Source: an uncultured Bacilli bacterium
GTDB lineage: Bacteria; Bacillota_I; Bacilli_A; RF39; UBA660
Assembly: GCA_947626515.1 (NCBI GenBank)
Contig: CANQSL010000011.1
Span: forward strand, 1-32,565
Length of the DNA stretch: 32,565 nt
Direction of reading: 5' to 3'
In this document: piece by piece, positions 21,124 through 30,353 of the stretch
Layout of the letters: every line of letters begins with the position of its first letter
Position numbering within the stretch: the stretch's first letter is position 1
Notes under the pieces: generated by a model
Database searches by the model: none
Told to the model about the DNA's origin: nothing
Seen by the model: only the letters and a program-made list of their open reading frames with translations
Made by a program: the position numbers and the translations under genes

Positions 21124-21843
21124 TTAATATTTAACGTTATATAAATATAAACCATTTGCAGGTGCAGTAGTATAATTTATTTTCTTATTACTATTAAATG
21201 CATTACGATAATCATTATAGCTAATTTTATTTTTTCCTACTTCAATTAATGATCCAACTATATTTCTTACCATATATCTATAAAAACTTTTTCCTTCAAA
21301 AGTAAAAATTATATAATCATTTTTTTTAGTTATACTAATTTTATATATTTCACTATCATAGTTATCTCTAGTACCACTTACAAAATTTTTATAAGAGTGT
21401 TGCCCAAATAAAATTTTGCTAGCTTTTCTCATCGAATTTATATTTAAATTATGACAATAATTATAAATAAAATCATTTTTAATAGCATTGTACTTTCCTA
21501 CATTTATAACATACTTATATATTTTTCTCTTTACACTAAATCTTGCGTGAAATGATTCATCTACTATTTTGCAATTATTAACGTAAATAGAAGGTGGCAA
21601 TATTGAGTTCATTGCTTGCACTAATCTTTTAGTAGGAATATTGACATTTAAATCAAAATGACATTTTTGATTTAAAGCATGAACTCCTTTATCGGTTCTT
21701 CCACTCCCCTTTACAATAACTTTTGATTTATTAATTTTACTTAATGCATATTCTAATTCTTTTTGAATAGAGTCTAAATTATTTAATCTTTGAAATCCAA
21801 AATATTTACTTCCATCATATGAAATACTTATCAAATATCTCAT
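21124..21843 (-). CDS. truA: tRNA pseudouridine synthase A
   Basis: 239 residues, normal TruA length. It makes pseudouridine at positions 38-40 in the anticodon arm of tRNAs. The catalytic motif GRTDKGVHA is present with Asp51. Other family features are YDGSKYFGFQRL near the start, RFSVKRKIYKYVI, and FYRYMVRNIVGSLIEVG. It is the last gene of the operon starting at 24773. Its ATG overlaps the stop of the degenerate ecfA2 gene by 4 bp. In Firmicutes truA normally follows ecfA1-ecfA2-ecfT; here ecfT is absent. Confidence 0.96.
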   Translation of the reverse strand: MRYLISISYDGSKYFGFQRLNNLDSIQKELEYALSKINKSKVIVKGSGRTDKGVHALNQKCHFDLNVNIPTKRLVQAMNSILPPSIYVNNCKIVDESFHARFSVKRKIYKYVINVGKYNAIKNDFIYNYCHNLNINSMRKASKILFGQHSYKNFVSGTRDNYDSEIYKISITKKNDYIIFTFEGKSFYRYMVRNIVGSLIEVGKNKISYNDYRNAFNSNKKINYTTAPANGLYLYNVKY

Positions 21844-22472
21844 TTTATACTCCTATAAATATCTTTTAATAACTCTTTATTATTTACTGTATATCCAAGT
21901 TTTGCTTTGTATTTATTTGCAAGTTTTATAAATTTAATTATCTCAGGATAATCTAAATTTATTCTACTTTTATATATTTTATTTATATCGTCCTGATAAA
22001 TTATTTTTCCATCTCTAAATACTATTAATTCTTGACATAATTCATTTAAGAAAACTAGGTCGTTGCTAATTGCAATCAATGTTTTTTTATAATTCCTTTT
22101 CAAATAATTTATTACTATCTTTTTATATTTATAATTTAAGCCTTTATCAAAATAATCTAATACTAAAATATTTTTATTATTTCTTAATGAATATATTAAT
22201 AATATTATTTTAAAAATACTTTTACTTACATTTTTTATTTTTTTATTTAATAAACTTTCTGGCATCTCAAATTCTTTTAAAAGATTTAATATATCATCAT
22301 CTAGCTTTAATTTATATCCATTCAAAAACCTTTTTATAGTCCATTCATCATCATAAGATATTCCTTCAAATTCTATACCGTAGTTAATTAAATCAATTTT
22401 ATCTTTATATACTGCAATAAATTTATTTTCCTTAAAAATATCCGATTTAGTATTTGTATACATTATTTCCAT
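21840..22472 (-). CDS. ecfA2: Degenerate ECF-type ATPase (EcfA2-like), lacks Walker A
   Basis: 210 residues against about 280 for EcfA2. The N-terminal nucleotide-binding part is lost or unrecognisable: no GxxGxGKS/T occurs. What remains reads as the ABC core: NVSKSIFK where the LSGGQ signature should be, ILVLDYFDKGLN for the Walker B/D-loop ILDEPTAGLD (the catalytic Glu is Tyr), and AISNDLVFL where the switch His is Asn. The strand IVFRDGKII and the C-terminal helix match EcfA-type ends. It should not hydrolyse ATP on its own. The ORF begins at 22472, but the ATG at 22463 (M4) overlaps the ecfA1 stop as TAATG and may be the true start. The gene overlaps truA by 4 bp. The assignment rests on gene order plus these motif remnants. 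Confidence 0.72.
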   Translation of the reverse strand: MEIMYTNTKSDIFKENKFIAVYKDKIDLINYGIEFEGISYDDEWTIKRFLNGYKLKLDDDILNLLKEFEMPESLLNKKIKNVSKSIFKIILLIYSLRNNKNILVLDYFDKGLNYKYKKIVINYLKRNYKKTLIAISNDLVFLNELCQELIVFRDGKIIYQDDINKIYKSRINLDYPEIIKFIKLANKYKAKLGYTVNNKELLKDIYRSIK

Positions 22473-23209
22473 AGTAAATCAATTAACTCCTTATGCACAA
22501 TATGTAATTCATTTATTAAGCCATATTCTTTTAACATTATATTTAAATCATATATAAACGGCATATTTAACCCTAAATCTTTAAATAATTTTTCATTTTT
22601 CAATATATTTTTTGATAAATCAAAATCATATTTATAACCTTTATTCATAACTAGAATTTTATCATATAAAAATAATTCTTCCATATCAGAAGTTATATTT
22701 AATAAAGTTATCTCATTTGCTTTTATATAATTTAAAATATTTGTTTTTTTATCTCTATTAAGATAAGTTAATAAATCGTCAATACAAAAAATTGATGGTT
22801 TTATTATCAATAAAGAAAGAATTTTTATATAATTTCTATCTTCTAATGACATATCTTCAAAATCAGATTTTAAAATGTTATCTAATTTAAAAAAGTCTTT
22901 AAATTCTTTAATACGATAATCAATCTCTTTAATTTCCATTCCTATTTTATATAAGTAATATCTTAATTCGCTTAATGGTGTTGGTGTATTAAAAATATTA
23001 TTATTTGATACACATACTATATTTTTACGTTTATAATCTAATGTAAACTGTTTAAGAAGTTTATTATCTATTAGTATATCCGTATTTTTCTTTATTCCAG
23101 ATAATTTATTTAAAATGTTTGTTTTCCCAGAACCTATTGGACCAATTATTCCAATTAATTCACCACTATTAATTGTAATATCTAAATCTTTAAATCTAAT
23201 TGTTTCCAT
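22463..23209 (-). CDS. ecfA1: Divergent ECF-type ATP-binding protein (EcfA1-like)
   Basis: 248 residues, ABC ATPase. Walker A is intact (GPIGSGKT, 23-30). Other motifs have drifted: Q-loop VSNNNIFN (no Gln), signature MSLEDR for LSGGQ, Walker B FCIDD with Asp145 in place of the catalytic Glu, and NITSDMEEL where the switch His is Ser. The C-terminal LGLNMPFIYDLNIMLKEYGL resembles the EcfA tail (LGLDVPEV…LLRKRGL). In ECF vitamin transporters EcfA1 and EcfA2 drive the EcfT membrane coupler and a substrate-binding S protein. No EcfT gene lies between this pair and truA. It may bind ATP but hydrolyse it poorly. It is 12 bp downstream of the DHH gene in the same operon. Confidence 0.78.
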   Translation of the reverse strand: METIRFKDLDITINSGELIGIIGPIGSGKTNILNKLSGIKKNTDILIDNKLLKQFTLDYKRKNIVCVSNNNIFNTPTPLSELRYYLYKIGMEIKEIDYRIKEFKDFFKLDNILKSDFEDMSLEDRNYIKILSLLIIKPSIFCIDDLLTYLNRDKKTNILNYIKANEITLLNITSDMEELFLYDKILVMNKGYKYDFDLSKNILKNEKLFKDLGLNMPFIYDLNIMLKEYGLINELHIVHKELIDLLWK

Positions 23210-26738: not shown

Positions 26739-26751
26739 GTTAAGTATTTCT
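26723..26751 (-). terminator. Terminator of the glucosaminidase-like gene
   Basis: AGAAATAC (26729-26736) pairs with GTATTTCT (26744-26751) around a 7-nt loop, with a U7 run on the minus strand. It overlaps the stop codon at 26750. Confidence 0.75.
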
Positions 26752-27670
26752 AATAGTTTACAATATCATCAATTGTAATGTTTTGTGTATAATTTTCATA
26801 TTTATTTTTTGCTTTATTTACTAGGCTTATCCAATGACTGCTAGCAACTTTATTTCCATATTCATCATAAGTAGGACAATAAACTCTACCTATAGAATAT
26901 ACATCCGTTAATCCTTTATTAAAATAGCTATCATAAAGTAATCTAATATACTTTAATACTCCTATTTCAATATTATCATATACTATCAAACCATTGTTGC
27001 CCATACCACCATATACGTTATTTCTATTTAACATATATTTAACTTCATAGTAACCACTTTCTGCTGCACCTATACTTAATGCCAATACTCTATCGACACT
27101 AGTATATATATTTGTATAATACATTATTAATTTTTCTACATAATCACTGGAACCATTATATGGTATTTTATAATTTTTCCTCAATTCACTATTATTTTCA
27201 ACTAAATCGAGAAAATATTCGACTATTCCATATTCTACATTAGGATATTGCATAATCTTACCTTCTTTTTTTAAGCTTGCAATATTAGTAGGTTCTATAT
27301 TTTTTGTATTTGATGATCTACTTATTAAATCATCTTTTATAAAATCCATATCATATCCAAATGCTTTTGCAAAAAATAATAAAGTATTGTAATTTTGATT
27401 TATATAATAATTTATATCCTTGATTATTATTCTTGGTTTATCAAATTTTAAAGCAGTATATTTTACAACTTTATAATTTAATAAATCTCTATATCTATTC
27501 CCGAACTGCTTACGCAGCGGAACAATTTCCTCTACATCTGGTGTAGTAGGTTCTTCATTATTTGTTTCTGCATCTACATTAACTGTAATAGCAACAACAA
27601 AAATGACTAAAATAACAATACAGCACAAAACATGTTTTAAAGCTTTACTAGAAGCTTTCTCTTGTTTCAT
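26750..27670 (-). CDS. Secreted or anchored glucosaminidase-like wall hydrolase
   Basis: 306 residues. A basic N-terminus and a hydrophobic stretch (about 13-32, ending near VDAE) form a signal peptide or anchor. The C-terminal half (about 190-295) resembles the glucosaminidase/GH73 family: VDRVLALSIGAAESGYY places the catalytic Glu at 204, then NRNNVYGGMGNNG matches the usual NNLFGIKG, followed by IEIGVLKYIRLL. Such enzymes cut between GlcNAc and MurNAc in peptidoglycan. The middle part (60-180) has no motif I know. A TTGACA-17-TATTAT promoter and an AAGGAGG site precede it. It is a single gene. Confidence 0.82.
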   Translation of the reverse strand: MKQEKASSKALKHVLCCIVILVIFVVAITVNVDAETNNEEPTTPDVEEIVPLRKQFGNRYRDLLNYKVVKYTALKFDKPRIIIKDINYYINQNYNTLLFFAKAFGYDMDFIKDDLISRSSNTKNIEPTNIASLKKEGKIMQYPNVEYGIVEYFLDLVENNSELRKNYKIPYNGSSDYVEKLIMYYTNIYTSVDRVLALSIGAAESGYYEVKYMLNRNNVYGGMGNNGLIVYDNIEIGVLKYIRLLYDSYFNKGLTDVYSIGRVYCPTYDEYGNKVASSHWISLVNKAKNKYENYTQNITIDDIVNY

Positions 27671-27702
27671 AATTAGTTCTCCTCCTTAAGTCGAACTTCT
27701 AT

Positions 27703-27731
27703 ATAATACCATACATATTTTGTACTGTCAA
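27703..27731 (-). promoter_or_regulatory. Promoter of the glucosaminidase-like gene
   Basis: Minus strand: perfect TTGACA (27731-27726), a 17-bp spacer, TATTAT (27708-27703), about 33 bp before the ATG. Confidence 0.75.
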
Positions 27732-27764
27732 ATTTCAAATTATACCAATTTTAACCAAAAAATT

Positions 27765-27794
27765 AAAAAATATTGAAATAAATTCAATATTTTT
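27765..27794 (-). terminator. Terminator of the coiled-coil/LysM gene
   Basis: A perfect 12-bp stem, AAAAATATTGAA (27766-27777) with TTCAATATTTTT (27783-27794), surrounds a 5-nt loop and overlaps the stop codon at 27793. Confidence 0.8.
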
Positions 27795-29103
27795 ATGCTT
27801 TATAATTATAATCTGTTGGTATTTCTAACTTTATTCCTGCGAATATATTAGTGTCCTCAGCTAATGATTTTACTGTATCAAAATCAGTATTTATTCCATT
27901 AGAAATTAAATATTTATTTATTGCATCTTTGTTAAAATAATATATAGCTTCCCAATTATCTTTGCTTGGATAAACCTTTTCTGCAATATTTATTAATGAT
28001 TCTCCATCCGATAAAACATATGAAACAGATGCTACTTCATCCTCTACACTATTCTCAGTTTTTTCTTCTTCAGGCTCTTCTACTTTAGTTTCTTCTGAAG
28101 ATGTATCATCATTATTTTCTGTTTCAAAAGACTCATCATCCTTTGTTTCATCAACTTCTAAATTGCCTTCTTCTTGAAGTGTTTTTTCTTCACTATCTTC
28201 AGTTATAACTGGTTCAACTACTTCATCATCATTAAATAATGAAACTTCTGGTTCTTCTTTTTTAACTTCATTTTGAGTTTCTTCTTCAAATACATTTTTC
28301 GTATATTCTTCAGGAACTTTATCGTAATGTAAATTTAATTCTCCTAACAATTTATCTAATTGAGAATATGTATTACTTAAATCTAAACTTAATGCCTTAG
28401 GATAAGCGCTTAATACTTCATTCTTTTTAGAAGTATATTTTTCTATTTCTTTTTCTCTGTTGCTAATTTTCTTTTGACAGAATTCTATGTTTTCTCTTAC
28501 AGGTAAATCTAGTTCTTCTAAAGCTTTATTAAACTCATTATTAATTTTTTCTAAATCAGAAGACATTTCATCTATATCATGATTTGGTATATTCAAATCA
28601 TAATCATTATTTTTTGCTATTAAATATTCTTTTTCTATTAAAAGAGGTGTATTATTATTAATTAATTGATTTAAAATTTCATTTAAGTCATTTAATCTAA
28701 CATTACAATTCTCTATTTCATTTTGGCAATCAATAACTTTAGCTGGGTCATCTGTCTTAAATATTTCTTCTTTTAAAGTATTTAATCTTTCCTCTATATT
28801 CTTTATTTTAGATTCATATTCAGAAATCCTAGCTTCACTTTCAGATATAACATCATCTATATCTTTCATTCTTAAAGTATCTGATTCTTTTTTATTTATA
28901 AGACTTTTATATTTAGACATTTTTTCTATATAGCTTTCATCTATATTTTCGTCTTTCAATATATTAGACATTTCTTTGTTAAGTTCATTTATTTCTTCAG
29001 TATATTTTTCTATTTCTTTATCACACTTTTTTATCTGATTTAATGCTAAAAGGTTTTCTAATGCTTCTTTTTGTATAATATTTTCAAATAATAGTTCAAC
29101 CAT
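27793..29103 (-). CDS. Coiled-coil protein with acidic linker and C-terminal LysM-like domain
   Basis: 436 residues with no signal peptide or membrane segment. Residues ~10-260 are long charged heptad-like helices (coiled coil). Residues ~270-370 form a Glu/Asp-rich, probably disordered linker. The C-terminal ~65 residues are LysM-like: SYVLSDGESLINIAEKVYPSK, NWEAIYYFNKDAI, then AGIKLEIP. This is a wall- or glycan-binding module placed on a protein with no visible export signal. It could be a mother-cell-type coat or morphogenetic protein, or the domain may have another role in the cytoplasm. The ATG follows GAGAGGAAG. A promoter lies at 29131-29158. Confidence 0.75.
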   Translation of the reverse strand: MVELLFENIIQKEALENLLALNQIKKCDKEIEKYTEEINELNKEMSNILKDENIDESYIEKMSKYKSLINKKESDTLRMKDIDDVISESEARISEYESKIKNIEERLNTLKEEIFKTDDPAKVIDCQNEIENCNVRLNDLNEILNQLINNNTPLLIEKEYLIAKNNDYDLNIPNHDIDEMSSDLEKINNEFNKALEELDLPVRENIEFCQKKISNREKEIEKYTSKKNEVLSAYPKALSLDLSNTYSQLDKLLGELNLHYDKVPEEYTKNVFEEETQNEVKKEEPEVSLFNDDEVVEPVITEDSEEKTLQEEGNLEVDETKDDESFETENNDDTSSEETKVEEPEEEKTENSVEDEVASVSYVLSDGESLINIAEKVYPSKDNWEAIYYFNKDAINKYLISNGINTDFDTVKSLAEDTNIFAGIKLEIPTDYNYKA

Positions 29104-29130
29104 ATTTAACTTCCTCTCTATTCTAAAAGT

Positions 29131-29158
29131 ATTATAACATAATTTGACACTTTTGCAA
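29131..29158 (-). promoter_or_regulatory. Promoter of the coiled-coil/LysM gene
   Basis: Minus strand: TTGCAA (29158-29153), a 16-bp spacer and a perfect TATAAT (29136-29131). The rest of 29159-29331 is AT-rich with no gene that I can see. Confidence 0.6.
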
Positions 29159-29331
29159 GAATAATATGTTAAGTTTTAAAAAAATGTTTGCAATTATCTT
29201 AATTTTGTGATTTTTGTATATTATTTTTTAATTGATTTTTTTCTTAAGTTTTCTTAATAAAATTAATACTAAATTATAATCATTAATTACTAATTTTTTT
29301 AAATATTTTGATTATATATTTCTATATAAAT

Positions 29332-29368
29332 AAAAAGAATTAAATATTATTTTCTTTTAATTCTTTTT
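29332..29368 (-). terminator. Terminator of the 29367-31988 cluster
   Basis: A perfect 13-bp stem, AAAAAGAATTAAA (29332-29344) with TTTAATTCTTTTT (29356-29368), surrounds an 11-nt loop and overlaps the stop codon at 29367. Confidence 0.8.
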
Positions 29369-30353
29369 ATAATGTATATTTAAGAATTTTAATATTTTCT
29401 TGTTCTTTATTTAATAAAAATAATAGATAGTCTTTAAAAGTTTCATTTATAAAATTAATTTCAGTATTTAACTTCTTCTTAAAAAAGTCTACATACTGAC
29501 ATTCAAATAAAGATTTATCAGATAATTTTATATTATCTTTAATATATTTATCAGCAATTTTTGATAAATTACTAGAAAACATCTTTAAACTAGACATTAA
29601 AGCTACCCATGTAGTTTCTAAATCAGTATTTGAATTCCCTATAGCTAGTTTATCTATATTAAAATCCAAATTCAAATCTTGCTTAAAAATATTATAAACT
29701 TTATTATTAAAATCTTGAACTAAATTTTTTATTTTATTAATTAGTTCTATTTTTTCTGTTTCATTACAATTTATAGTCATTGCTTTACTTATATTAATAA
29801 TGTTTTCATTTAAATAATTACATATTGGTTTTAATGAATTTAAATCAATACTTTGAAATTCTTTTTTCTCTAATGTATTTAGTATTTTTTCTAAATCTTC
29901 TAATTCATTTACGGGAATACTTGCAGGATCATCAATGATTTTCTTTTTAGGAACATAAATATTATGAGTTGGATAACATGCTGCTTCCGTATCTGCCCCT
30001 TCATCTGGAACTTCCACCCATTCTCCATAAGTAATTATTTTTGAAGGTGATCCTGGATAATATTCTGGATAATTACTTTGTAAATACTTCTTATAATTTA
30101 GTAAAATATCTAATTTTGTTTTATTATTATTTTTTATTAAATCAGTTACTAATTTAAACGAATTAATATAATGTTCATTAAAATAACAATACAATTTTTG
30201 ATATACAGAATTAATATAAACATAATTTTTTGCTAAATCAAATGATAACGGTTTAATATATTCTAATGTTATATTTTGTTCTTCTTTAGACAAAGAATTA
30301 AGAACTTTAAGATTTTTATTAAAAGTATTTATATTATTATAAAGTATAGACAT
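29367..30353 (-). CDS. Protein of unknown function, third gene of WG-repeat cluster
   Basis: 328 residues, soluble, largely helical (Leu/Lys/Asn-rich). A distinct Pro/Tyr-rich insert near residues 92-140 reads YPEYYPGSPSKIITYGEW and GADTEAACYPTHNIYVP, and looks like an exposed or binding segment. I recognise no family. It follows the 130-residue gene by 15 bp on the same strand and ends in a strong terminator, so it is the last gene of a three-gene unit beginning at 31988. Confidence 0.7.
   Translation of the reverse strand: MSILYNNINTFNKNLKVLNSLSKEEQNITLEYIKPLSFDLAKNYVYINSVYQKLYCYFNEHYINSFKLVTDLIKNNNKTKLDILLNYKKYLQSNYPEYYPGSPSKIITYGEWVEVPDEGADTEAACYPTHNIYVPKKKIIDDPASIPVNELEDLEKILNTLEKKEFQSIDLNSLKPICNYLNENIINISKAMTINCNETEKIELINKIKNLVQDFNNKVYNIFKQDLNLDFNIDKLAIGNSNTDLETTWVALMSSLKMFSSNLSKIADKYIKDNIKLSDKSLFECQYVDFFKKKLNTEINFINETFKDYLLFLLNKEQENIKILKYTL

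Follow-up and report, generated by a model that had tools for sequence, protein, structure and literature searches.

The ECF ATPases EcfA1 and EcfA2 encoded in a 32,565-nucleotide stretch of DNA from an uncultured Bacilli bacterium (hereafter the window) are best explained, on balance, as a retained heterodimer that would no longer drive transport, namely a pseudo-ATPase with a second role independent of both ATPase activity and EcfT. An earlier note on this DNA had considered the arrangement at this locus; its observation stands, but its framing proved too narrow, given that the same event has occurred repeatedly across a large family of gut bacteria with small genomes, possibly RF39 of the uncultured Bacilli.

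The genes ecfA1 (22463-23209), ecfA2 (21840-22472) and truA (21124-21843) follow one another on the minus strand and span positions 21124-23209, with no ecfT within the run. ORF prediction, profile models and AF2 models identify the first two as degenerate ECF ATPases of 248 aa and 210 aa, the latter N-terminally shortened and without a P-loop; truA (TIGR00071, 7e-59) is the constant downstream neighbour. The overlap between ecfA1 and ecfA2 is 10 bp and that between ecfA2 and truA 4 bp, such that truA starts inside ecfA2 and the slot is closed, leaving no room for ecfT. These coordinates bear out what the earlier note had said of the gene order, the missing ecfT and the 4-bp overlap. The 10-bp overlap (22463-22472) is near-invariant in about 100 related loci, with or without EcfT, implying conserved translational coupling of the two genes.

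EcfA1 best matched the ECF ATPase models NF010156 (1e-27) and TIGR04520 (2.5e-26) and, among solved chains, EcfA1 of Lactobacillus delbrueckii (2.5e-16). For EcfA2 the best match was TIGR04521 (1.4e-9), confined to the region after the Q-loop, and there were weak sequence matches to ABC-F proteins. Neither protein reached its NCBIfam equivalog cut-off (EcfA1 scored 96.9 bits against 392, EcfA2 37.4 against 330). The AF2 model of EcfA1 (pLDDT 72.8) was closest to EcfA1 of an ATP-bound ECF module (8bms_A, TM 0.76), and that of EcfA2 (pLDDT 68.8) to EcfA2 of ECF-FolT2 (7nnu_B, TM 0.63). Homology to ECF ATPases includes the C-terminal domains, and both subunits share sequence and fold, as well as the overlapping ecfA2 start, with the Group II ECF module EcfA1-EcfA2-EcfT (L. 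delbrueckii ECF-FolT2; PDB 8bms, 7nnu, 5jsz). Unlike that module, the window pair has no EcfT, no recognised S component and no EcfA2 P-loop, its EcfA1 lacks the catalytic Glu, and neither subunit has the switch His.

Sequence comparison placed the surviving motifs, all on the minus strand. EcfA1 carries an intact P-loop (GPIGSGKT, residues 23-30, positions 23120-23143), of which G23, P24, G28 and K29 are invariant in six relatives, and a Walker B motif, FCIDD (22775-22789), that keeps the Walker Asp and has Asp for the catalytic Glu. Ser174 (22688-22690) occupies the switch His position. The Q-loop position is Asn, a difference that alone says little, since intact family relatives often have Glu rather than Gln there. 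EcfA2 has lost its P-loop lobe, has Tyr at the catalytic Glu position (LVLDY) and Asn for the switch His, and retains VSKSI in place of LSGGQ as a signature remnant (22215-22229), more degraded than the LSKGQ, LSKSQ or LSKSE of three of four sister species. Walker A is therefore present in one subunit only, and the combination of catalytic Glu and switch His in neither. The earlier note's account of the motifs was accurate: the analysis confirmed that EcfA1 keeps Walker A and lacks the Walker B Glu, Q-loop Gln and switch His, and that EcfA2 lacks Walker A, the region before the end of its Q-loop being unmatched by TIGR04521. Downstream of these motifs lie the C-terminal domains of EcfA1 (22466-22615), which is the most conserved EcfA1 region in EcfT-less loci, and of EcfA2 (21843-21968), ending ELLKDIYRSIK.

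We searched the genome of origin (1.37 Mb, 95.6% complete, 21% GC) for EcfT and S components, as the earlier note had proposed. Nothing scored over the PF02361 cut-off, and a profile built from 15 same-family EcfTs, all of which it recovers, returned no match, so the EcfT of a functional ECF transporter was not found to be encoded. The EcfT-less relatives likewise yielded no EcfT with Pfam or with the profile built from the family. Two weak EcfT matches (C19 and C9) fell below the cut-off, and the former was rejected as lying inside a 393-aa frame that reads as an FtsW/RodA-like protein. An EcfA1 tail profile matched once only, revealing no second EcfA1, and between them the tail and EcfT profiles gave no sign in this genome of the intact second ecfA1A2T set that would have spoken for decay of the present pair. 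No S component of the families PF12822, PF07155, PF09515, PF07456 or PF02632 exceeded the cut-off, a negative whose weight is limited by six EcfT-bearing relatives that likewise had no clear match. Weak PF12822 matches in EcfT-less genomes were rejected, being under the cut-off and mostly within unrelated frames.

All four other genus members carry the same pair without ecfT (EcfA1 54-59% and EcfA2 63-70% identity), and the arrangement recurs in more than 100 relatives, which is far beyond chance. The 17 named loci with the pair, including those of the four genus members, are all from uncultured Bacilli MAGs, whose titles include rabbit ('Lapin'), goat colon, water-deer cecum and 'Sandtown' samples. 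Among 34 mapped family genomes, 15 have EcfT, two have a shrunken ORF in its slot (216 and 194 aa), and in 17 the slot is empty. Of 244 genomes of the family with a completeness of 90% or more, 211 contain the EcfA1 C-terminal tail and 80 contain EcfT, which leaves at least 131 with EcfA1 but no recognised EcfT; in other families of the class, EcfT was present in 17 of 17 genomes. Assembly gaps do not explain the pattern, since the EcfT-less genome G202, for one, consists of a single contig. The PF07456 S component was found in 9 of 15 EcfT-bearing relatives and in none of the 19 relatives with a mapped ecfA1-ecfA2 locus that lack EcfT or have a remnant of it, which suggests that transport itself was lost along with EcfT. 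In three EcfT-bearing loci (L088, L089 and L090, of genomes G007, G019 and G005) PF07456 adjoins ApbE-like genes, joined in two of these loci by FMN-binding-like genes, a neighbourhood resembling an extracellular electron transfer locus; PF07456 is missing from the EcfT-less relatives.

On a TruA tree of 33 genomes, four changes between EcfT states were needed, three of them forced by supported branches; with 115 genomes, 15 changes were needed and supported branches force nine for the EcfT-less label, counts that rest on this one gene's tree and on a remnant class that blurs the border between states. EcfT has thus been lost independently several times, and we give 'several' rather than a fixed number.

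To follow the decay of the motifs, 75 further loci without recognised EcfT were read. One was excluded because its apparent 903-aa EcfA2 (genome G084) reflected a run of N; in 62 the order A1-A2-truA is uninterrupted, and in the other 12 an ORF of 189-233 aa fills the EcfT slot. The pooled set comprised 15 EcfT-present, 14 EcfT-remnant and 88 EcfT-absent loci, and counts are given in that order. In EcfA1, the P-loop (GxxxxGK[ST]) was found in 14, 11 and 71 loci and the Walker B Asp in 14, 14 and 78, the catalytic Glu in 11, 0 and 4 (with Asp in 53 and Asn in 27 of the absent class), the switch His in 7, 0 and 1, and the signature Gly in 10, 1 and 1. In EcfA2, the P-loop was retained in 13, 3 and 7, the switch His in 8, 0 and 3, and the signature Ser in 14, 14 and 73; Glu or Gln of the signature was present in 71 of the 88 EcfT-less loci. 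The retained elements (EcfA1 P-loop and Walker Asp, EcfA2 signature) would form one composite site, the other site being dismantled. Losses go further in part of the family: the EcfA2 lobe with the P-loop and Q-loop is missing in about 40 of the 88 EcfT-less loci, 17 of the 88 EcfA1s have no recognisable P-loop, and seven loci (L063, L155, L179, L189, L195, L201 and L209), forming a C-terminal-half lineage, encode only C-terminal halves (EcfA1 145-172 aa, EcfA2 181-191 aa). Throughout the EcfT-less loci, a Pro, a Tyr and a Trp of the EcfA1 C-terminal domain and the Lys of LIKDIYR in EcfA2 are each invariant (88 of 88), and the EcfA1 C-terminal domain holds 2.02 bits per column as against 0.91-1.32 in the rest of the protein. 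Conservation of these domains is just as high in the relatives in which EcfT persists.

Were a diverged EcfT-like protein to dock from elsewhere in the genome, with slow hydrolysis or ATP binding alone moving the substrate, the pair could still serve a transporter. A diverged EcfT can indeed escape detection, as profiles missed the 189-233 aa slot ORFs of 14 relatives, of which the two that were read from end to end are hydrophobic. Set against this are the closed slot and lack of any EcfT match here, the absence of all five S-component families over cut-off, the loss of the catalytic Glu and His, the missing EcfA2 lobe in so many loci and the same EcfT relocation that would be required in several lineages; we therefore regard continued transport as unlikely. 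The earlier note had offered two readings, a new role outside transport and an EcfT gene that is unlinked. The first is the one we prefer, EcfT being gone and selection having kept the pair, and the second is improbable for three reasons: in the 14 relatives the gene has become shorter at its original site, S components vanish with EcfT, and the lobe lost from EcfA2 in about 40 of the 88 EcfT-less loci is the one that would carry the EcfT groove. The two hydrophobic slot ORFs (194-216 aa; L078:3478-4128 and L067:5783-6367), which neither Pfam nor NCBIfam recognises, look like EcfT being lost or changing function.

We assessed selection on the pair by comparison among relatives, as had also been proposed. 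Across 10 close EcfT-less pairs, dN/dS was 0.08-0.35 for EcfA1, 0.09-0.36 for EcfA2 and 0.07-0.28 for truA, the pairs being taken from related genera and the genus members themselves (55-70% identity) apparently lying near synonymous saturation at 21% GC. Even for a pair with C-terminal halves only (G011/G155; 149 and 183 aa), dN/dS was 0.14 for EcfA1 and 0.16 for EcfA2. Neutral change simulated at the third-position divergence between the window's genome and a relative (G000 vs G003) leads one to expect 28% identity for EcfA1 and 35% for EcfA2; the observed values, 59% and 70%, are above this expectation. Frames were intact in the examined loci. Purifying selection thus holds EcfA1 and EcfA2, centred on their C-terminal domains, as the earlier note had supposed of the pair from its intact frames, and the relaxed selection that it had named as part of a case for decay is excluded. 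A decaying remnant, still undeleted in reduced AT-rich genomes, would account for the differing degrees to which motifs and ecfT have been lost within the family and for the genomes in which no EcfA1 tail was detected (33 of 244, about 14%), yet it is refuted as a general account, and very improbable, given truA-like dN/dS well below 1, intact frames, invariant C-terminal residues across the 88 EcfT-less loci and identities far above those of the neutral simulation. The pair is not indispensable everywhere, as those 33 genomes show, some of which may be explained by MAG gaps.

The only constant neighbours of the pair are truA and, usually, rplM-rpsI, and the upstream context can change completely. 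Upstream genes were rejected as a functional partner, not being conserved among related loci. Separately, positions 26750-30353 of the window contain three long ORFs (306, 436 and 328 aa) without a Pfam match. Transfer of the nucleotide-binding domains to a different ABC system, e.g., as a regulatory or structural dimer for another permease, would fit the ABC fold with one intact P-loop, and ABC complexes with one degenerate site are known (PMC7756269). It too is unlikely, in that no permease recurs upstream or downstream and loss of the EcfA2 coupling lobe speaks against any transmembrane coupling. A further reading would have the pair act together with tRNA or ribosome factors encoded in the truA-rplM-rpsI operon; it stays beside truA, and usually rplM-rpsI, through complete upstream change. 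Predictions for Mycoplasma genitalium have GatC and GatB interacting with ECF components, and in M. pneumoniae GatC is tied to such components by cross-links (PMC13047044). This translation-linked role is a distinctly unlikely one, as the operon order is ancestral in Bacilli (PMC8046335), so that the linkage may be inherited, and the Mycoplasma contact runs via an S-like domain of GatC, not shown for the present organisms. Ribosome-associated ABC-F proteins likewise have two ABC domains without a membrane partner; these are active tandem domains in one polypeptide, with the Walker B Glu, whereas here there are two genes, dead sites lacking that Glu, and ECF C-terminal domains.

For the favoured pseudo-ATPase, we infer that EcfA1 and EcfA2 still pair via their C-terminal domains. 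Conservation of these domains fits such an association, as does covariation, in which 13 of the top 60 EcfA1-EcfA2 pairs link the C-terminal domains (3.3 expected), a weak signal from which phylogeny was not removed; two top covarying pairs involve residues encoded by the 10-bp gene overlap. In most species, including the window's genus, the motifs suggest that the dimer would grip one ATP, with the P-loop and Walker B Asp of EcfA1 on one side and the remnant of the EcfA2 signature on the other. Turnover would presumably not follow, since Asp or Asn has replaced the catalytic Glu and the switch His has been lost. When the Glu of the ATPases is changed to Gln in an active ECF module, neither hydrolysis nor transport persists, and the double mutant is observed as a closed dimer with ATP bound (PMC10368641). 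By analogy, EcfA1 with Asp or Asn at the Glu position and without the His may be regarded as a natural counterpart of this 2EQ mutant, with which it shares catalytic Glu loss in the EcfA dimer and expected ATP binding without hydrolysis; the laboratory mutant keeps both sites and EcfT, whereas here one site is lost and EcfT absent. Degenerate-site ABC exporters such as TM287/288 are similarly asymmetric heterodimers with one degenerate nucleotide site, but retain one fully active site and membrane domains. ATP binding cannot be universal, judging from the 17 P-loop-less EcfA1s and the seven loci reduced to C-terminal halves; ATP would not be essential in lineages from which both lobes are gone, which leaves the C-terminal domains as the invariant core. 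The dimer, with no membrane subunit, may serve a putative partner either as a scaffold in solution or as a regulator that depends on ATP. In the searchable literature (subscription papers being outside its scope), we found no published EcfA pair that is EcfT-less, catalytically dead and selectively kept.

Two observations make it probable that the ancestral EcfA pair already had the proposed second role: the C-terminal domains are equally conserved alongside EcfT, and the pair was kept when EcfT was lost several times. More tentatively, it is possible that ECF ATPases in general have an ancestral EcfT- and hydrolysis-independent function in the C-terminal domains of the heterodimer; in this family it would be the only function left after transport had been abandoned many times, which would make the pair a new class of cytosolic pseudo-ATPase. 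ECF ATPases have been treated purely as vitamin-uptake motors and antibiotic targets. Retention of EcfA after loss of EcfT and of catalytic residues, in more than half of the sampled family, amounts to a natural experiment in which transport and a second function come apart, and it directs the search for that function to the C-terminal domains. An ecfA1/ecfA2 annotation in uncultured gut Bacilli consequently does not warrant inferring vitamin import and, if the ancestral function is real, the intact EcfA1A2 of other Bacilli may do the same job beside vitamin uptake.
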